Under the pieces are notes generated by a model. It was not told the DNA's origin. It saw only the letters and a list, made by a program, of their open reading frames with translations, and did not search any database. From assembly GCA_027021085.1 (NCBI GenBank), contig JALUVB010000247.1, positions 1 to 28,511 on the forward strand: a stretch of 28,511 nucleotides of DNA, written 5' to 3'. Positions 18,534-28,503 of this stretch are shown here, piece by piece (position 1 is the stretch's first letter; the number at the start of each line of letters is the position of its first letter). The stretch is from a bacterium (GTDB lineage Bacteria; CAIJMQ01; JAADFP01). The position numbers and the translations under genes were made by a program.

Positions 18534-19325
18534 ATGAAATTAGCAGTGGTTGGGAAAGGTGGCACCGGGAAAACTACCTTAACCGCATCTATTGCTAAAA
18601 TCTACCTGGAGAAAGGCAACAGAGTCATTCTGATAGACGCTGACCCTGATGCGAATCTATCTCGCACCCTGGGGATAAAGGAGGAAGTCATTCCTTTAGT
18701 GGAGTTGAAATCTCTCATTACGGAAAGAACCGGGGCAGAGCCGGGTAAACCCACCATCTTTTTCACCCTGAATCCACGTGTGGATGATATACCGGAGAAA
18801 TTCTTTTATCGAGAGGGCAATCTTTACCTGGGCATCATGGGAACGGTAAGGGGTGGAGGCATGGGCTGCACCTGCCCCGAGAATACTTTTCTTAAGGCAC
18901 TGCTTCAACATCTTATACTCTTCCAGAATGATATGGTGATTATGGACATGGAAGCGGGGATAGAACACCTGGGGAGAGGCACCTCCCAGGGAGTAGATTG
19001 GCTGCTCACCGTAGTTGAGCCGGGCGAGAAAAGTGTAGATACCGCATTAAAAATCAGGAAGTTAGCAGGGGAACTGGGAATAAAAAGAATAGGGGTGATA
19101 GGGAATAAAATAGGTAATGAGAAAGAGAAAAAATTTTTGCGGGAAAGACTGAAAGATTTCCATTTCCTGGGCTTCATCCCTTACTTACAGGGAATAAAAG
19201 AAGCAGACCTCAAGGGGATACCTCCCTGGGAAGAAGCTCCCCGGCTTCTGGAATACAGCAGGAAAATAGTGGTAAATATGGAGGGAGAAAATGAAGGAAA
19301 AGAAAATCCTGGGCCCCACGTATGA
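18534..19325 (+). CDS. cooC: CODH nickel-insertion ATPase CooC
   Basis: A 263-residue P-loop ATPase of the MinD/SIMIBI class. It begins MKLAVVGKGGTGKTTLTASIA with the deviant Walker A KGGTGKTT (8-15) and the signature lysine K8. IDADPDANL (34-42) is switch I, and C112-T-C114 in GCTCPENTFL is the CxC pair that binds nickel between subunits in CooC dimers. MDMEAGIEHLGRG is switch II. It inserts nickel into the C-cluster of CO dehydrogenase. A much longer frame opens at 18267, antisense to the Hsp20 gene, but the promoter hexamers lie at 18489-18517, so the ATG at 18534 is preferred; no Shine-Dalgarno sequence precedes it. The 3' end overlaps the next small ORF. Confidence 0.93.
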   Translation: MKLAVVGKGGTGKTTLTASIAKIYLEKGNRVILIDADPDANLSRTLGIKEEVIPLVELKSLITERTGAEPGKPTIFFTLNPRVDDIPEKFFYREGNLYLGIMGTVRGGGMGCTCPENTFLKALLQHLILFQNDMVIMDMEAGIEHLGRGTSQGVDWLLTVVEPGEKSVDTALKIRKLAGELGIKRIGVIGNKIGNEKEKKFLRERLKDFHFLGFIPYLQGIKEADLKGIPPWEEAPRLLEYSRKIVVNMEGENEGKENPGPHV

Positions 19326-19467
19326 ACGGGGTAAACCCACTCAGCCGCTTTCCTGGATGAAGAAACTCTCAAATAGAGAGGAGATGCTGAAGTTCTTAAA
19401 AACGGGTGAACGCTACTGGTTTTCCCGGGAAGGCTACGGAAGCGAAAGAAGGAAAACGCCTGCTTAG
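19291..19467 (+). CDS. Unrecognised 58-residue basic protein in the CODH/ACS operon
   Basis: A small ORF starting at ATG 19291 behind GGAGGGAG with a 5-base gap, a better ribosome-binding site than most genes here. It overlaps the last codons of cooC in another frame and stops at TAG 19465-19467, inside the AGGAGG of acsD, so translation of cooC, this ORF and acsD is probably coupled. The protein has nine Lys, six Arg and seven Glu (net about +8), no Cys or His, and seven aromatics clustered in YERG, PLSW and RYWFSREGYG. It begins MKEKKILGPTYERGKPTQPL. I do not recognise a family. It lacks metal-binding residues, so a docking or regulatory role toward CooC, CODH or the corrinoid protein is only a guess. 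Confidence 0.68.
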   Translation: MKEKKILGPTYERGKPTQPLSWMKKLSNREEMLKFLKTGERYWFSREGYGSERRKTPA

Positions 19468-19476
19468 GAGGTGAAG

Positions 19477-20421
19477 ATGAACTGGGAAATTCCAAAGATT
19501 CAGTATAAGGGGAAGATAAAAGAGGTTACTCTGGGCACAGGAGAAAAAGCAGTAACAGTGGGGGGAGAAAACTGCTACTCGTTCCATGACTTCGAAGGAG
19601 AAATACCAAACTCTCCTATCATAGCTTACGAGATCTGGGACCACGCGCCCGAGAACTGGCCGGAGGCAGTGCGCAAACCATACGAAAACGTGCTGCAAAG
19701 CCCCTCTGACTGGGCCAAGAAATGCGTGGAGGAATACGGAGCCAGGCTGATTACTGTGCAATTGCTCGGAATCGACCCGCACGGGATGAACCGTTCAGTA
19801 GAAGAAGAGATGAAAATAGTGGAGGAAATAGTAAAAGCAGTAGATATTCCCTTAATATTCTGGGGATGTGATGACGTGGAAAAGGATGCCGAAATACTGC
19901 GTAAAATTGCCGAGCTTTGTGAAGGCAGAAATGTAGCTCTTGCACCAGTGGCAGACAAGAATTACAAGCAAATTGGTGCTTCTGCCATTGCTTACAAACA
20001 CGTGGTAATCGCCTCCACTCCCATTGATGTCAACCTGGCCAAGCAGCTGAACATACTTCTCCTGGACCTGGGTGTGCCGGAAAATAAGCTCCTCATGGAC
20101 CCCACGACAGGAGGGCTGGGTTACGGAATTGAGTATACTTACTCGGTAATGGAAAGGGACAGGATAGCCGCACTGGTGCAGGAAGACGAAAAACTCGCCT
20201 TCCCCATGATTTGCAACCTGGCCAAGGAAGTATGGAAGGTAAAAGAAGCGGCTATACCTATGGCAAAGGAGCCCGCCATGGGGAAAGAAAAAGAAAGAGG
20301 CATAATGATGGAGGCAATCACTGCTTCCCTTCTGGCGCTGGCGGGAGCCGATATCCTGGTAATGAGACATCCCAGGGCGATAGGGTTAATAAGTGAATTG
20401 ATAGAGGAGTTGCGAGCATGA
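19477..20421 (+). CDS. acsD: Corrinoid/iron-sulfur protein small subunit (CODH/ACS delta)
   Basis: A 314-residue TIM-barrel protein. The ATG at 19477 follows AGGAGG by five bases; a GTG at 19471 lies inside that sequence and is rejected. Family segments include EVTLGTGEKAVTVGGENCYSFHDFEGEIPNSPIIAYEIWD near the N-terminus, VDIPLIFWGCDDVEKDAEILRKIAE, LAPVADKNYKQIGASAIAYKHVVIASTPIDVNLAKQLNILLLDLG and LLMDPTTGGLGYGIEYTYSVMERDRIAAL. With AcsC it forms the heterodimer that cradles the cobalamin and carries the methyl group from methyltetrahydrofolate to acetyl-CoA synthase. Its partner acsC is not adjacent but lies about 6.7 kb downstream. The end overlaps the ferredoxin gene by 4 bases (ATGA). Confidence 0.95.
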   Translation: MNWEIPKIQYKGKIKEVTLGTGEKAVTVGGENCYSFHDFEGEIPNSPIIAYEIWDHAPENWPEAVRKPYENVLQSPSDWAKKCVEEYGARLITVQLLGIDPHGMNRSVEEEMKIVEEIVKAVDIPLIFWGCDDVEKDAEILRKIAELCEGRNVALAPVADKNYKQIGASAIAYKHVVIASTPIDVNLAKQLNILLLDLGVPENKLLMDPTTGGLGYGIEYTYSVMERDRIAALVQEDEKLAFPMICNLAKEVWKVKEAAIPMAKEPAMGKEKERGIMMEAITASLLALAGADILVMRHPRAIGLISELIEELRA

Positions 20422-20921
20422 AGAGAATATTTGTGGATGAGGAAAGATGCCTGGGGTGCAGAAGTTGCGAGATAGCCTGCGCCATAAAACATTCCCATTC
20501 AAATAAACTGGAAAAGGCCATCCGGGAACAACCCCTTCCTATCTCCCGCATAAGAGTGAGAAAAGACGAAAATAATGCTATACCTCTCCAGTGCCGCCAC
20601 TGCCCGGAGCCTTCCTGTGTCTATGCCTGTATTGCAGGCGGGATAAGAAAGGATGAGAAAACCGGCCTGGTGGTATTTGAGGAGAAAAAATGCGTCAGAT
20701 GCTACTCCTGCGTGATGGTCTGTCCTTTTGCGGTAATAAAACTGGGAAAAGAAGAACAGCCGGCCGTTAAATGCGACCTCTGCCAGGAGGAAGAAATTCC
20801 GCCCTGCGTAAGAGCATGTCCTACGGGCGCTTTATTTTTCGGAGAGGCGGAAGAATTCCAGGAATTGATGGAGAAGAGAAGAAAACGGGGTGAGAAAGAT
20901 GCATTACTTAATACTGGGTAA
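20418..20921 (+). CDS. CooF-like ferredoxin with four [4Fe-4S] motifs
   Basis: A 167-residue electron-transfer protein of the CooF/HycB type. Sixteen cysteines fall in four groups: C11-C14-C17-C21, C59-C62-C67-C71, C92-C95-C98-C102 and C119-C122-C130-C134, the pairing order of the polyferredoxin subunits of CODH, hydrogenase and formate dehydrogenase. It should pass electrons between CooS and the flavoprotein encoded next. It overlaps acsD by 4 bases upstream and the oxidoreductase by 23 bases downstream, so all are in one operon. The CooF call rests on neighbourhood as well as motif pattern; a general HycB-like protein cannot be excluded. The basic, polar C-terminal end (MEKRRKRGEKDALLNTG) overlaps the next gene. 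Confidence 0.85.
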   Translation: MKRIFVDEERCLGCRSCEIACAIKHSHSNKLEKAIREQPLPISRIRVRKDENNAIPLQCRHCPEPSCVYACIAGGIRKDEKTGLVVFEEKKCVRCYSCVMVCPFAVIKLGKEEQPAVKCDLCQEEEIPPCVRACPTGALFFGEAEEFQELMEKRRKRGEKDALLNTG

Positions 20922-22188
20922 CTGCGCCGCAGGATTAAATGGGATAGAGGGCATCCGAAGCTTAGACAAAAAAGGTGAGATTACTTTAATCTCGGCCGAA
21001 TCTTACCCTGCTTATGCACGCTGTCTCATTACAAATTTTCTCATAGGCACCCACTCCGAAGAAGACCTCTACTTGAGAGAAAAGGATTTTTACCAGAAAA
21101 ACGGGGTTAAGGTTCTGCCGGGAAAAAAAGCAGTCAGAATATTTCCAAAAGAAAAAAAGGTGGAAACAGAAGAGGGGAAAAAGATACCCTACGATGCCCT
21201 GCTGATTGCTACCGGAGCCTCTCCCAAGGCACTGATGGTAAAAGGGGAAGAAAAGAAGGGGGTTTTTGGTTTTCGCACCCTGGAAGATGCCAAGCAAATC
21301 TTGAAAAGAGCAGAGAAAGCTGAGAAGGCTCTTGTTTTCGGGGGAGGATTAATAGGATTAAAAGCTGGCTATGCTTTAAAGAAAAAAGGGCTTGCCGTAG
21401 AGGTGATTGTCAAATCGCCCCGCGTACTTTCCCGGGTAGTGGAGGAAAACTCTTCCCGCCTAATAGCAAAGTGGCTGCAGGAAAAGGGAATTAAAATCAG
21501 GACAGGCCTGGCAGCGAGAGAAATCCTGGGAGATAAGGAGATGAGCGGGGTGCTTCTGGATAACGGGGAAGAGGTCAAAGCACAGATAGCCATCGTGGGA
21601 AAGGGAGTTTCACCCAACCTGTCCTTCACAGAGGGAAGCGGCATAAATACTCACTGGGGAATAGTGGCGGATAATTATTTGCGAACAAACTTCCAGGAAA
21701 TATTTGTTGCCGGGGATGTAGCGGAAACAAAGGACCTGGTTACCGGAGAACGCACTATCAATGCCCTCTGGCTTGCTGCTCAGGAACAGGGAAAGACCGC
21801 AGGGATAAATATGGCAGGCGGGGAGAAAGCGTATCCAGGCTCCATAGGAGCCAATGCAGCAGAGTTCTTTGGTTTGCCTTTCATTTCCATGGGGTGCCTG
21901 CAGGCAAGAAACGGAGAAATAATCAGGGAGAGAAAAGAGGAGAAAAAATTCATTTACCGGAGGCTGGTCTTCAAAGAAGGCAGGCTAATTGGCGCGGTGC
22001 TGGTAGGCAAGGTGGAAGCAGCCGGAATATACATGGCACTCATTCGTAAAAAAGAGAGGGTGGAAAATTTAATGGACGAGCTCTTAGAAGGCTGGATTGA
22101 CTATGGGAAATTCGAGAAAATACTGGAAGGGGAAAATGGATTTAGAGAAACAGTTACCCCGGACGGCAGGCTTATAAAATTACCCTAA
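20899..22188 (+). CDS. FAD/NAD(P)-dependent oxidoreductase of the CODH-associated (FNOR) type
   Basis: A 429-residue flavoprotein. The start chosen is ATG 20899, six bases past GGGGTG; a GTG at 20890 is part of that region. The N-terminal FAD fold is HYLILGNCAAGLNGIEGIR, the NAD(P) fold is KALVFGGGLIGLKAGYALKKKG, and the second FAD contact is LRTNFQEIFVAGDVAE. These and SYPAYARCLITNFLIG match the NADH oxidase/nitrite reductase-like flavoproteins that accompany cooF and cooS in many anaerobes. It probably moves electrons between the CooF-like ferredoxin and NAD(P)H. No C-terminal rubredoxin domain is present. The cooS gene starts 8 bases after its stop. Confidence 0.88.
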   Translation: MHYLILGNCAAGLNGIEGIRSLDKKGEITLISAESYPAYARCLITNFLIGTHSEEDLYLREKDFYQKNGVKVLPGKKAVRIFPKEKKVETEEGKKIPYDALLIATGASPKALMVKGEEKKGVFGFRTLEDAKQILKRAEKAEKALVFGGGLIGLKAGYALKKKGLAVEVIVKSPRVLSRVVEENSSRLIAKWLQEKGIKIRTGLAAREILGDKEMSGVLLDNGEEVKAQIAIVGKGVSPNLSFTEGSGINTHWGIVADNYLRTNFQEIFVAGDVAETKDLVTGERTINALWLAAQEQGKTAGINMAGGEKAYPGSIGANAAEFFGLPFISMGCLQARNGEIIRERKEEKKFIYRRLVFKEGRLIGAVLVGKVEAAGIYMALIRKKERVENLMDELLEGWIDYGKFEKILEGENGFRETVTPDGRLIKLP

Positions 22189-22196
22189 GGAGGTGC

Positions 22197-24131
22197 ATGA
22201 TGGAGTGGTCTCGTGATGGCTCTGCAAAAAAGTTGCTGCAAGAAATAAGAGAGGAGGATTTCCAATTATCCTGGGATAGATTGCAGGAACAACTTCCCCA
22301 GTGCGGCTTTGGTATCCTGGGGATATGCTGCCGCAACTGTTCCATGGGTCCCTGCAGGATAGATCCCTTCGGCGAAAATGCCCAGGTGGGCGTATGCGGA
22401 GCAGACGCTGATACCATTACCGCGAGAAACTTTCTGCGCATGGTAGCAGCAGGCGTTTCTGCCCATTCCGACCACGGAAGAGCCGTAGCCGAAACTTTGA
22501 TAAAGGTGGCCAGGGGAGAAGCACCCGGATACGAGATAAAAGATGAATACAAGCTGCTTAAACTTGCCCTGGAATTTGGCCTGGAAGTGGAGGGGAAGAA
22601 AATAGAAGATATTGCCCTGCAGGTGGGGATAAATGCCCTGCACGAATTCGGAAACCAGGAAGGAGAAATTACCCTGGTTAAAAGAGCGCCTCTCAAAAGG
22701 CAGAATATCTGGAGAAAACTGGGAGTGGTACCGCGGGGCGTGGACAGGGAAGTGGTAGAGGCTTTGCACCGCACTCATATGGGAACTGACCAGAACTATT
22801 TACATATTATGCGACAGGCTACGCGCTGTGCACTATCCGATGGCTGGGCAGGTTCAATGTTAGCTACCGAATTACAGGATATTCTCTTCGGCACCCCCAC
22901 CCCCATCGTGGGCAAGGTAAACCTGGGCGTACTCAAGGAGGACCAGGTAAATATTATTGTACACGGGCATGAACCCCTGCTTTCCGAAATGATAGTAATG
23001 GCTGCCCGGGACCCGGAGATGCTCAAGATGGCTAAAGAAAAAGGAGCCAGGGGGATAAATATTGCCGGCATCTGCTGTACTGCCAACGAGGTCCTGATGA
23101 GACACGGGATTCCCCTGGCAGGCAACTTCCTTAACCAGGAACTTGCCATAACCACCGGCGCAGTGGAAGTGATGGTAGTAGACGTACAATGCGTAATGCA
23201 GTCCCTGCCCACCATAGCCTCCTGCTTCCATACCCGGATTATCACCACTTCTGAAAAAGCCAAAATCTCCGGAGCAACCCATATGGAATTTAGCGAGGAA
23301 AATGCTCTGAAAAAGGCAAAGGAAATAATCAAGATGGCTATTGAACGATTCCCCCTGCGCAAGAAATCCCAGGTGCGAATTCCTGCAGGAGAAGTAGACC
23401 TGGTGGCAGGATTTACACACGAGACTATCACTTACATGCTGGGAGGTATGTTCCGTGCTTCTTACAAACCTCTCAATGATAATATCATAGGAGGCAGAAT
23501 AAGAGGGGTAGCCGGCGTGGTAGGATGCAATAATCCCAAGGTTACCCATGATGAGTCCCACCTCATCATGGTCAAGGAGCTTTTGAAACAGGACGTGCTG
23601 GTACTCCAGACAGGCTGTGCAGCCATTGCCTGCGCCAAGGAGGGACTCTTAGACCCGGTGAAAGGGCTGGAATACTGCGGGGACGGTTTAAGGGAGGTCT
23701 GCGAAGCCGTGGGTATTCCTCCTGTCCTGCATTTAGGTGCTTGCGTGGATAACTCACGCATTCTGGTAGCGGCAACCGCCATGGTGAAAGAAGGCGGGTT
23801 GGGTGATGATATCTCCGAGCTTCCCGCGGCTGGAGCAGCTCCGGAATGGATGAGTGAAAAAGCTATCTCCATAGGACAGTACTTTGTTGCCTCCGGCGTA
23901 TTCACAGTCTTTGGCGTTACCTGGCCTACACTGGGGAGCAAGAATCTAAGCAGGTACCTGTTTGAAGAAATTGAAGAGGAGATGGGCGGCAAATGGGCAT
24001 TTGAACCTGACCCGCTGAAAGCTGCCCATTTAATGATAGAGCATATTAATAAAAAGAGAAAAGCGCTGGGTATAGATAAAGCCAGGGAAAGGGTCCTCTT
24101 TGATATGGAGATGAGGAGGGGACTGGAATGA
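22197..24131 (+). CDS. cooS: Nickel-dependent carbon monoxide dehydrogenase catalytic subunit
   Basis: A 644-residue CODH (also called AcsA). Tandem ATGs occur at 22197 and 22200; AAGGAGG spacing favours the second, but coordinates are given from the first. The D-cluster cysteines are C36 and C44, and the B-cluster cysteines C45, C48, C53 and C67. C-cluster ligands are present in IVHGHEP (His), AGICCTANE, DVQCVMQ, VVGCNNP, QTGCAAIA and HLGACVDNSR (Cys). The enzyme interconverts CO and CO2 and delivers CO through a tunnel to AcsB. All catalytic residues I looked for are there. The gene lies between FNOR and acsB, so it may serve both the ACS complex and NAD(P)H-linked CO oxidation. Confidence 0.97.
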   Translation: MMEWSRDGSAKKLLQEIREEDFQLSWDRLQEQLPQCGFGILGICCRNCSMGPCRIDPFGENAQVGVCGADADTITARNFLRMVAAGVSAHSDHGRAVAETLIKVARGEAPGYEIKDEYKLLKLALEFGLEVEGKKIEDIALQVGINALHEFGNQEGEITLVKRAPLKRQNIWRKLGVVPRGVDREVVEALHRTHMGTDQNYLHIMRQATRCALSDGWAGSMLATELQDILFGTPTPIVGKVNLGVLKEDQVNIIVHGHEPLLSEMIVMAARDPEMLKMAKEKGARGINIAGICCTANEVLMRHGIPLAGNFLNQELAITTGAVEVMVVDVQCVMQSLPTIASCFHTRIITTSEKAKISGATHMEFSEENALKKAKEIIKMAIERFPLRKKSQVRIPAGEVDLVAGFTHETITYMLGGMFRASYKPLNDNIIGGRIRGVAGVVGCNNPKVTHDESHLIMVKELLKQDVLVLQTGCAAIACAKEGLLDPVKGLEYCGDGLREVCEAVGIPPVLHLGACVDNSRILVAATAMVKEGGLGDDISELPAAGAAPEWMSEKAISIGQYFVASGVFTVFGVTWPTLGSKNLSRYLFEEIEEEMGGKWAFEPDPLKAAHLMIEHINKKRKALGIDKARERVLFDMEMRRGLE

Positions 24132-24191: not shown

Positions 24192-26396
24192 ATGTCTAAA
24201 ATTATTGCTTCAGCAGCCATAAGGGGAGCACACAAAATTGTAGATATGGCAGAAAAGAAATGGAAAGAAGCGGTTGATAAGTTTGGTATTAACCAGGAGG
24301 TGCATTTTCCGGAAACTGCCTATTACCTGCCAATCATATACGGCATACTGGGAGAAAAAATAGAGAAACTATCTGACATGGAAAAAGTATTTTCCCTATG
24401 TAGAAAATTCTTACCCGCACCCGTGCATGAGAAAGTACACCTACCCTACCTGGGCCCCACGCTGGACGCCGGCATGGTAACTCTATTTGCCGAGGAAATG
24501 ATGGAAGCAGTAAAGTACCTGGAAGAACCTGACTTCTACTTCCCGGAAGAAGAACCGCCGGAAGGCAAGCTCTGGCTGGGTGCAGCAAACGACATAATTT
24601 TAAGGAAAAGGGGCATTGAATTTGTGGATGGTACTGCACCCGGGTTTGCCGCCATTGCCGGAGCAGCCCCCGACGCAACGACTGCCATGAAAATCGCCCA
24701 GGAGTTGCAGGAGAAAAATCTATACGTCTTCATGTGTGCCCAGCACGCAGGGAAGAGGTTCGCCGAGCAACTGGTGGAAGGAGGCATGCAAATCGGCTGG
24801 CCCGTGCGGCTGGTGCCATTCGGACCGGAGATTTATGAGGCTGTGTTTGCCCTGGGATTCGCGGTAAGGGCTGCCATGTCCTTTGGAGGAATAGAACCAG
24901 GAGATTTCCGAAGAATTCTTATCTACAACAAGGACAGGATATTTGCCTTTGTCCTGGCATTGGGCTACGTCTCGGAAGAATGGTATGCCAATGCCGCAGG
25001 AGCAATTAATTTTGGTTTTCCCACCATTGCTGACACCCCTATCCCGCAGATTCTTCCCACCGGAGTATGCACCTATGAGCACGTGGTTTCCAACATTCCC
25101 CACGACCGGATAGTAGCCAAGGCCGTAGAAGTAAGGGGATTGAAAGTCACGGTAAGCAAAGTCCCCATTCCGGTTCCCTACGGACCCGCCTTTGAAGGAG
25201 AAAGGGTGAGAAAAGAGGACCTTTACCTTGAAGCAGGAGGGACAAGAACATTATCCTGCGAATGGACTACCACCCTTCCCCTCAACCAGGTGGAAGACGG
25301 GAAAGTAGAAGTCATCGGTTCTGACCTTGATGAGCTACCGGAAGGCACACAGACGCCCTTAGCCATAGTAGTGGAGGTAGCCGGCAGAGAAATGCAGGAG
25401 GAGTTTGAACCCATCCTGGAAAGGCAAATCCACGATTACATAAACTATATAAACGGGGCAATGCATATAGGACAGAGGGAGATAGTATGGATAAGGATAA
25501 GCAAGAAAGCCAAGGAGAAGGGACTCCGTTTAAAGCACCTGGGTATGGTCATACATGCCAAGTACCATGAAGTATTCGGGAATATCCTGGATAAGGTGCA
25601 GGTAAAGCTATACACGGACGAGCAAAAGGTAAAAGAGATACTGGAAAAAGCAAGAATAGTCTGGAAAGCCAGGGATGAGAGACTTGCCGGTATGACCGAT
25701 GAAGAAGTTGACACATTCTACTCCTGCACCCTATGCCAGTCATTTGCTCCCTCTCATGTCTGCATAGTCACCCCGGAACGCACAGGGCTGTGCGGTGCCT
25801 ACTCCTGGCTTGATTGCAGAGCCTCTAACCGGATAAATCCCGAAGGACCCAACCAGCCGGTGAAAAAAGGAGCAATTATTGACAGCCGCCTGGGACAGTG
25901 GGAGGGATGCAATGAATTTGTAAACAAAGCCTCACGGGGAGCGCTGGAGAGAGTAAGTATATACAGTTTAATGGTAGACCCCATGACCACCTGCGGATGC
26001 TGTGAATGTATTGCCGTGGTATTACCCCTTTGCAACGGAATAATGACCGTGAACCGGGAATACAAGGGCGATACTCCCTGCGGCATGAAATTTACCACGC
26101 TGGCAGGCACCATCGGAGGAGGCAAACAGAACCCGGGCTTCCTGGGGCACTCAAAATTTAACATCACCCAGAAGAAATTCATTGCTTCCGAAGGAGGAAT
26201 AAAAAGACTGGTATGGATGCCCAAAATGCTCAAGGAAGAAATCTGGGAGAGACTGGTCAAAAGATGCGAAGAGATAGGAATGCCTGATTTGCCAAATATG
26301 ATTGCCGATGAGACAGTGGGAGTAACCGAGGAAGAAATACTCACTTTCCTGCAGGAGAAAAAACATCCTGCCCTGGAAATGGAACCTTTGATTTGA
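24192..26396 (+). CDS. acsB: CO-methylating acetyl-CoA synthase
   Basis: A 734-residue bacterial-type acetyl-CoA synthase. The A-cluster ligands are complete and keep the spacing of the Moorella enzyme shifted by six: [4Fe-4S] cysteines C512, C515, C524 and C534, and the C601-G602-C603 motif that holds the proximal and distal nickel. F518 (QSFAP) corresponds to the phenylalanine near the nickel site. The N-terminal domain (about 1-310) that binds CODH in bacteria is present, unlike archaeal CdhC. It joins CO, the corrinoid methyl group and CoA into acetyl-CoA. The ATG follows AAGGAGGGG, 60 bases after cooS. The stop overlaps the -35 element of the next promoter. Confidence 0.97.
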   Translation: MSKIIASAAIRGAHKIVDMAEKKWKEAVDKFGINQEVHFPETAYYLPIIYGILGEKIEKLSDMEKVFSLCRKFLPAPVHEKVHLPYLGPTLDAGMVTLFAEEMMEAVKYLEEPDFYFPEEEPPEGKLWLGAANDIILRKRGIEFVDGTAPGFAAIAGAAPDATTAMKIAQELQEKNLYVFMCAQHAGKRFAEQLVEGGMQIGWPVRLVPFGPEIYEAVFALGFAVRAAMSFGGIEPGDFRRILIYNKDRIFAFVLALGYVSEEWYANAAGAINFGFPTIADTPIPQILPTGVCTYEHVVSNIPHDRIVAKAVEVRGLKVTVSKVPIPVPYGPAFEGERVRKEDLYLEAGGTRTLSCEWTTTLPLNQVEDGKVEVIGSDLDELPEGTQTPLAIVVEVAGREMQEEFEPILERQIHDYINYINGAMHIGQREIVWIRISKKAKEKGLRLKHLGMVIHAKYHEVFGNILDKVQVKLYTDEQKVKEILEKARIVWKARDERLAGMTDEEVDTFYSCTLCQSFAPSHVCIVTPERTGLCGAYSWLDCRASNRINPEGPNQPVKKGAIIDSRLGQWEGCNEFVNKASRGALERVSIYSLMVDPMTTCGCCECIAVVLPLCNGIMTVNREYKGDTPCGMKFTTLAGTIGGGKQNPGFLGHSKFNITQKKFIASEGGIKRLVWMPKMLKEEIWERLVKRCEEIGMPDLPNMIADETVGVTEEEILTFLQEKKHPALEMEPLI

Positions 26397-26694: not shown

Positions 26695-27087
26695 ATGGAG
26701 TATTTTATTGACACCAATGTATTCTTGAAAGTATTAATCAGAGAAGATGATAAAATCTTTGCAGAATGTTTCCATCCTTTTAAAATAATCAAAGAGAAAA
26801 AAGTTTCTGCCTTTACCTCTTCTCTGGTAATTGCCGAAGTACATTGGACACTTCTGAGTTTCTATCAGATACCTAAGAAGGAAGTGACTGAAGCACTAAA
26901 AAGCATTATAAATTTAAGAGAACTTAAAATAACGGATAATTTTAATGTAAGAACTGCTATTAATCTTTACGAAGATTATTCGGTTAAATTTATAGATGCC
27001 CTTATTGCTTCTATTCCTAAAATATTTAAAAGAGAAATGGCAGTTGTCTCCTATGATAATGACGTAGAACCCTCGAGAGTGCTTTGA
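26695..27087 (+). CDS. PIN-domain ribonuclease toxin (VapC-like)
   Basis: A 130-residue PIN-domain protein. The acidic residues expected for magnesium binding are all present: D6 (FIDTN), E48 (VIAEVHW), D101 (KFIDALIA) and D121/D123 (SYDND). Such toxins cut tRNA or rRNA when the antitoxin is lost. The length is normal for the family, and the short C-terminus after SYDND (VEPSRVL) is slightly unusual but does not remove catalytic residues. It appears intact and potentially active, inside the CODH/ACS operon between acsB and acsC. It is AT-rich like the antitoxin gene. Confidence 0.87.
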   Translation: MEYFIDTNVFLKVLIREDDKIFAECFHPFKIIKEKKVSAFTSSLVIAEVHWTLLSFYQIPKKEVTEALKSIINLRELKITDNFNVRTAINLYEDYSVKFIDALIASIPKIFKREMAVVSYDNDVEPSRVL

Positions 27088-27159: not shown

Positions 27160-28503
27160 ATGGGACTGAATGCTCTGGAAATATTTAAGCTTCTACCTAA
27201 AACAAACTGCAAAAAATGCGGGTTCCCCACCTGCTTAGCCTTTGCCATGCAGCTGGCCATGGGAAAAGTATCCCTGGACAAGTGCCCGGATGTAAGCGAA
27301 GAATCCCGGGCAAAATTGCAGGAATCTTCTGCGCCTCCCATAAAAACCGTTACCATTGGCAAGGGGGAATCAGAACTCAAACTGGGAGGAGAGATAGTAT
27401 TATTCCGCCATGAGAAAACCTTTTACAGCCCCACCGGGATAGGTACCACCATATCGGAGGATATGAGCGAGGAAGAAATAGAAGAACGCATAAACAGGCT
27501 TAAAACTCTTGAATACGAAAGGGTGGGACTGAGCTTAAAAGCAGACCTCGTAGCAGTGGAAGACAGGGGGAAAGGCAAATTTCTGGAACTGGCACAGAAG
27601 GCATTATCCACAAAAAAAGCCGTGATTCTTGCCAGCAAAAGTCCTGCGAACCTGGAAAAGGTTTTAAAGGAACTATCCGATTTTTGCCCCCTTGTTTACG
27701 CAGCGACAGAAGAAAATTTTGCCTCGATGGCTAAACTGGCAAAAGAATTTCGCGTACCCCTGGCAGTAAAAGCAGAAGGGATAGAAAAACTCATCCCCCT
27801 GATAGAGAAGATTAAGCAAATGGGAGTGGAAAACCTGGTCCTGGATACCGGGGCAAATGATATTAAAACCCTTTTCAGGGACATGGTAAGCTTGAGAAGG
27901 GCAAGCATATTAAAAAAATTCAGGACCCTGGGTTATCCCACAATCTCTTTTACCGGAAGATTAACAGATGATTACCTCAAGGAAGCCCTTTACGCTTCCA
28001 TACTAATTGCAAAATATTCCAGCGCCGTAGTAATGAACCATATTGCAGGAGAAACTCTTTTTCCTCTATTAATAGAAAGATTGAATATATTCACCGACCC
28101 TCAAAGACCGATGGCCACCCCGGAAGGCATATACGAAATAGGCAAACCTGACGAGAATTCCCCGGTTATAGTTACCGTGAACTTTGCTCTTTCCTACTTC
28201 ATTGTCTCAGGAGAAGTGGAAAACTCCCGCACCCCGGCCTGGCTGCTTGTGCAGGATTCGGAAGGGTTATCCGTGCTTACTGCCTGGGCAGCAGATAAAT
28301 TCAATGCAGAAACTATTGCTGCACTGGTAAAGAAAACCAAAATAGAGGAGAAAATTAAGCATCGGAAACTTATTATCCCCGGTTATGTGGCCCAAATAGT
28401 GGGCGAGCTGGAAGAAGAATTGCCAGGCTGGGAAATACTACTGGGGCCAAGAGAAGCCTCCTATATCCCTGCTTTCCTCAAAAGCAGCTGGAAAGCAGCA
28501 TAG
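27160..28503 (+). CDS. acsC: Corrinoid/iron-sulfur protein large subunit (CODH/ACS gamma)
   Basis: A 447-residue protein. The N-terminal [4Fe-4S] domain holds C17, C20, C25 and C42 in TNCKKCGFPTCLAFAM and DKCPDV, the low-potential cluster that reactivates the cobalt. A short linker (about 58-66) leads to a TIM barrel with LKADLVAVEDRGKGKFLELA and LVLDTGANDIKTLFRDMVSLRRASILKKF. The C-terminal corrinoid-binding region includes IAKYSSAVVMNHIAGETLFPLLIERLNIFTDPQRPMATPEGIYEIGKP. With AcsD it carries the methyl group to AcsB. AAGGAGG precedes the ATG. A 72-base spacer separates it from the toxin gene; I see no separate promoter there. It should be expressed from the operon or the toxin-antitoxin promoter. 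Confidence 0.95.
   Translation: MGLNALEIFKLLPKTNCKKCGFPTCLAFAMQLAMGKVSLDKCPDVSEESRAKLQESSAPPIKTVTIGKGESELKLGGEIVLFRHEKTFYSPTGIGTTISEDMSEEEIEERINRLKTLEYERVGLSLKADLVAVEDRGKGKFLELAQKALSTKKAVILASKSPANLEKVLKELSDFCPLVYAATEENFASMAKLAKEFRVPLAVKAEGIEKLIPLIEKIKQMGVENLVLDTGANDIKTLFRDMVSLRRASILKKFRTLGYPTISFTGRLTDDYLKEALYASILIAKYSSAVVMNHIAGETLFPLLIERLNIFTDPQRPMATPEGIYEIGKPDENSPVIVTVNFALSYFIVSGEVENSRTPAWLLVQDSEGLSVLTAWAADKFNAETIAALVKKTKIEEKIKHRKLIIPGYVAQIVGELEEELPGWEILLGPREASYIPAFLKSSWKAA

Follow-up and report, generated by a model that had tools for sequence, protein, structure and literature searches.

CODH/ACS ranks with the most ancient enzymes of carbon fixation. Very small proteins are encoded together with CODH maturation genes, namely the nickel chaperones CooT and CooJ, which bind Ni through Cys and His residues. 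To our knowledge, descriptions of the well-studied CODH/ACS-CoFeSP systems do not include the small protein that is the subject of this work. The enzyme is usually described with five subunits (PMC6305446). The components AcsA/CooS, AcsB, AcsC, AcsD and AcsE (CdhA-E in Archaea) share with the small protein their operon and, within one branch of the enzyme, their phyletic pattern. The small protein differs from them in its length of about 58–75 residues, matches none of AcsA-E in sequence, and is absent from the other ACS branches.

The window, i.e. the whole stretch of 28,511 nucleotides that was analysed, carries the gene at 19291–19467 on the + strand, as do all features named below. As claimed in an earlier, sequence-only reading of the window, it is a complete open reading frame for 58 amino acids, extending from ATG 19291 to TAG 19465–19467; the product has the C-terminal motif RYW...YGSERRKTPA. 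The start is preceded by the Shine-Dalgarno-like sequence GGAGGGAG (19280–19287, +; read from the sequence). The gap of 5 bases given for it previously has to be corrected: the ATG is 3 bases away from the end of GGAGGGAG or 6 from its GGAGG core. Identical bases precede the start in the related locus L031. The two overlaps that had been noted follow from the coordinates. The start of the gene shares 35 nt with the 3' end of cooC (18534–19325, +; ORF list, Pfam CbiA), which codes for a P-loop ATPase for Ni insertion, and this overlap is present in L031 too. The TAG stop overlaps the Shine-Dalgarno sequence AGGAGG of acsD (19466–19471, +; read from the sequence). acsD (19477–20421, +; Pfam CdhD 4.5e-48, NCBIfam PRK04452) codes for the small (delta) subunit of the corrinoid iron-sulfur protein. 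A mechanical ORF call begins this gene at GTG 19471; because this codon falls on the Shine-Dalgarno sequence, ATG 19477 is the likely start.

The same operon continues with a 4Fe-4S ferredoxin-like protein (CooF-like; 20418–20921, +; Pfam Fer4_11) and with what we take to be an FAD/NAD(P)-type oxidoreductase (20890–22188, +; ORF list), assigned by its sequence type and not by a library scan. These two genes (20418–22188) lie between acsD and cooS, likewise in L079, and their products may feed electrons to CODH. The Ni-CO dehydrogenase is presumably encoded by 22197–24131 (+), named cooS/acsA from its sequence type (ORF list; homologs in related operons). It is followed by acsB for acetyl-CoA synthase (24192–26396, +; PF03598 5.7e-67), which was the source of the trees, and by a gene which we take, again from its sequence type, to be acsC for the large (gamma) subunit of the corrinoid iron-sulfur protein (27160–28503, +; ORF list; homologs in related operons). 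Between acsB and acsC lies a 130-aa ORF (26695–27087) that appears PIN-domain-like by eye and is unusual within this operon.

Outside the cooC overlap, comparison with a genome of the same genus yielded a dN/dS value of 0.068 for the small gene; the values for its neighbours cooC and acsD were 0.064 and 0.096, respectively. Ten of the 13 nucleotide differences in this part are synonymous, and the probability of so few amino-acid changes is P = 0.00035 if the same substitutions are placed at random. By this comparison the small gene is shown to be under purifying selection, with the synonymous bias that the earlier reading had proposed to look for. A translated search of acs operons found the small protein at the same place in many phyla, and in related operons the interval is kept as protein. 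Since homologs occur in many phyla, selection is purifying, and the remaining two same-strand frames of the non-overlapping stretch are interrupted by stops, the ORF is far beyond chance; on these comparative grounds, 19291–19467 is a genuine protein-coding gene.

The searches yielded neither a name nor a model or structure for the small protein, which would add a component to an already known enzyme. The window protein matched no Pfam or NCBIfam family at E ≤ 5 and had no credible match in the PDB, Rfam contained nothing for its gene, and 17 family members gave only stray single-member matches in Pfam and NCBIfam. None of the known CODH/ACS subunit families (AcsA-E, CdhB) was matched in Pfam, NCBIfam or PDB. 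The open-licence papers searched do not mention such a protein. Like CooT and CooJ it is very small, but its family conserves no Cys or His for metal binding, and no CooT-type nickel-binding family was matched in Pfam at E ≤ 5. The NCBIfam model NF003377 (432-aa delta subunit) is a related description: some AcsD proteins carry C-terminal extensions, and the extension of the fused lineage ends in the small-protein domain. The model covers AcsD and up to about 100 residues beyond it, but not this domain, and the small protein alone gives no match to it.

In 74 sequences, G14, W22, R41, Y42, W43, G50, S51, E52, R54, K55 and A58 are invariant or nearly invariant; the conserved features are thus a Trp, an RYW motif and the end GSE(K/R)RKxxA. 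In 70 of the 74 the polypeptide ends exactly at the conserved Ala, in stand-alone and fused forms alike. Because the exact C-terminus is conserved, these alignments suggest that the free end belongs to the function. The window protein was described previously as strongly basic, aromatic-rich and devoid of Cys and His. For this protein the description is accurate (net charge +8, pI 10.1, 7 aromatics, no Cys/His), but neither the strong basicity nor the absence of Cys/His holds for the family: the mean net charge is +2.0 (range -5 to +9; 9/74 negative), and 30 of the 74 sequences contain one to three Cys/His. Basicity was therefore rejected as a functional clue, strong basicity being particular to the window genome; a basic C-terminal segment occurs in most members. 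AlphaFold predicted no confident fold from 17 or from 74 sequences (pLDDT 65–66; pTM 0.39 and 0.33), and a helix at about residues 29–39 was the most constant element of the models. Strong conservation without a predicted fold is weakly indicative of a subunit that takes up its fold on a partner; the models are too poor to carry much weight. To model the AcsD-tail protein, fusions, AcsD and stand-alone small proteins were aligned together, but this alignment placed the N-terminal halves of the small proteins on AcsD and was dropped.

A single-sequence search of 98 genomes gave clear relatives in three others (G001, G044 and G046), with identities of 93% in the same genus and 64% and 61% in other families; weaker matches outside these three were taken as chance. 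Two short patterns, scanned against 84,980 species genomes, detected 17 loci in MAGs labelled Caldisericota, Desantisbacteria, Deltaproteobacteria/Desulfobacterales, Myxococcota, Bacillota, Dehalococcoidia, Armatimonadetes and Spirochaetia. The MAG labels of the relatives span at least eight phyla, across which the protein identity is 47–66%; all carriers with a name are MAGs. By profile search, the protein was found in 6 of 301 genomes from the phylum of a Dehalococcoidia MAG, in 57 of 395 from that of a Desulfobacterales MAG, and in all seven genomes of one small phylum. In the sample from the phylum of the Bacillota MAG, the query's own genome was the sole counted match. The matches in G289 (E 0.02, internal stops) and G1270 (E 9.8e-4) were taken as chance.

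AcsB is present in 36 of 386 bacterial genomes; in a set of these 36 plus G001, nine genomes have the small protein with a clear score. With 60 rows in the AcsB tree, the presence and absence of the small protein correspond to a single change (shuffled mean 19.8). This perfect distribution could not be maintained: when far more Desulfobacterota were included, an AcsB tree of 118 rows required 5 changes (shuffled mean 39.2), and the less resolved AcsD tree required 7. The presence of the small protein follows one branch of bacterial CODH/ACS. The counts do not separate gain from loss, and one origin plus several losses would fit them. In the Desulfobacterota sample, AcsB occurs in 252 of 395 genomes as against 57 with the small protein; most Desulfobacterota ACS are therefore without it. 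Many ACS operons of other branches lack the small gene, as do some nested Desulfobacterota lineages. Related operons without the gene, which the sequence-only reading would have counted against a real protein, do thus exist, but the absence follows the phylogeny of CODH/ACS.

The constant partner of the small gene is acsD, and not cooC. Of 63 distinct loci without fusion, 60 are followed on the same strand by acsD as the next recognised gene and two by cooS; in one case the contig ends. Upstream, cooC is the closest recognised gene in 39 of the 63 loci, and several operons have other genes between. The earlier proposal that an additional conserved component lies between these two genes is supported, with the correction that acsD is the constant neighbour and cooC is not. 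Co-occurrence and co-inheritance are those of a dedicated CODH/ACS component: either acsD or cooS lies downstream in 62 of the 63 loci, and the distribution follows the AcsB tree. Nearly all loci from the pattern scan have acsD next, and cooS, acsB and acsC farther downstream where the contig extends. Judged by eye from the sequences, the wider operons contain fhs, cooC, folD, the small gene, acsD, cooS, acsB, acsC and acsE in variable order and look like complete Wood-Ljungdahl clusters.

Furthermore, in 12 Desulfobacterota genomes the small-protein domain is the C-terminal end of an AcsD protein of about 500 residues and thus part of the same polypeptide, whereas it is encoded by a separate gene in the window and in most relatives. 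It is preceded in the fusion by a linker segment of about 100–130 residues, for which no convincing Pfam match was found. The gene next to the fused forms is usually cooS or acsB. The fusion counts as a single change whether it is mapped on the AcsB tree or on the AcsD tree, which indicates that it arose once. Judged from gene order and fusion, the link between the small protein and AcsD is well supported, and the small protein very probably belongs to the CODH/ACS enzyme as a part that has been overlooked.

AcsD is joined to other proteins as well. A neighbouring ACS clade of Desulfobacterota that is devoid of the small protein includes 11 loci (L163, L166, L168, L176, L182, L184, L187, L191-L194) in which MetF (methylenetetrahydrofolate reductase) is apparently connected to AcsD by a long Ala/Lys/Glu-rich linker within one polypeptide; in L168, Pfam MTHFR and CdhD both match. 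AcsD-CooS open frames were found at L036:5315-8683 (confirmed by Pfam) and L148:1890-5294 (whose reading frame looks alike), and an AcsB-AcsD fusion at L060:2506-6054 (also confirmed); Pfam confirmation covers one example of each of the three types. These fusions indicate that joining partners through AcsD is recurrent. They are further ways in which AcsD is tied to pathway partners, but they involve large enzymes and Ala/Lys/Glu or Ala/Pro linkers, whereas the small protein is a small conserved tail. In L036 the small protein is still separate although AcsD is fused to CooS, and the L148 frame looks alike; tethering of AcsD to CODH is therefore not its only role. Among the lineages without the small protein, 13 loci (L165, L167, L170, L171, L173-L175, L177, L179, L181, L183, L186, L189) have Ala/Lys/Glu-rich AcsD tails of about 200 residues. 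These tails end in a short conserved segment that occurs in two versions, approximately ...DRxxxxIDRIHRR and ...GPDAVYILKSLxRWRLRGDGV. The remaining lineages without the small protein have an AcsD without extension.

We consider it moderately likely that the small protein is an accessory subunit of one CODH/ACS branch, which is bound to AcsD and helps the corrinoid protein to dock on CODH/ACS. From the fusion and the gene order we infer a physical binding to AcsD; the fusion speaks more firmly for a shared function than for an exact binding site. The small protein probably has no globular domain of its own and would extend along AcsD with one central helix. Contacts would be made by the invariant Trp22, by Arg-Tyr-Trp 41–43 and by the C-terminal tail GSE(K/R)RKxxA, whose free end would sit in a pocket. 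Bound in this way, it would assist AcsCD during methyl transfer in docking to CODH/ACS or to its other exchange partners. Both the docking role and the C-terminal pocket are speculative. A published C. hydrogenoformans model puts the CoFeSP beta subunit in contact with the N-terminal domain of ACS (PMC12289521); because of this placement, an AcsD-bound peptide could act at the ACS-facing side.

The main rival, which we regard as unlikely, is an assembly or maturation factor, that is, a chaperone that holds AcsD or apo-CoFeSP until the pairing with AcsC and corrinoid, or that aids nickel loading by CooC. A small, poorly folded and highly conserved protein would suit a chaperone; it is encoded upstream of acsD and would be made first, and cooC is often close by (39 of 63 loci). 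However, the neighbour that remains constant is acsD and not cooC, no Cys or His is conserved for metal handling, and the permanent fusion to AcsD (12 genomes, one change on the tree) is better explained by a stoichiometric subunit. Distinctly less probable is an AcsD-anchored adaptor for a partner outside CODH/ACS, such as the methyltransferase AcsE, a corrinoid reductive activator or the MetF/NADH side. The fhs-, folD-, acsE-like and redox genes recognised by eye in the operons and the MetF-AcsD fusions of ACS lineages without the small protein are compatible with such an adaptor, but it is cooS or acsB that usually follows the fused forms. A regulator or nucleic-acid-binding protein, to which the charge and pI of the window protein and the basic C-terminal segment of most members would point, is very improbable, as basicity is not conserved and the fusion to an enzyme subunit strongly disfavours it. 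A non-protein origin, i.e. a leader ORF coupling the translation of cooC and acsD or a by-product of cooC and the Shine-Dalgarno sequence, would be suggested by the overlaps at both ends but is refuted by the protein identity across phyla, the dN/dS of 0.07 outside the overlap and the in-frame fusion to AcsD.

The accessory subunit bound to AcsD can be put into a broader statement, for and against which we see the balance as even: the small protein may be a sixth CODH/ACS component of one major branch, a peptide that folds on binding, is tied to AcsD, controls how the corrinoid protein docks to acetyl-CoA synthase at the final Wood-Ljungdahl step, and has been passed on together with the enzyme in at least eight phyla. 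If this is true, the CODH/ACS complex of one branch has a part that has not yet been studied. The small protein and the recurrent fusions of AcsD to MetF, CooS and AcsB would then offer a handle on how the corrinoid protein stays near acetyl-CoA synthase.
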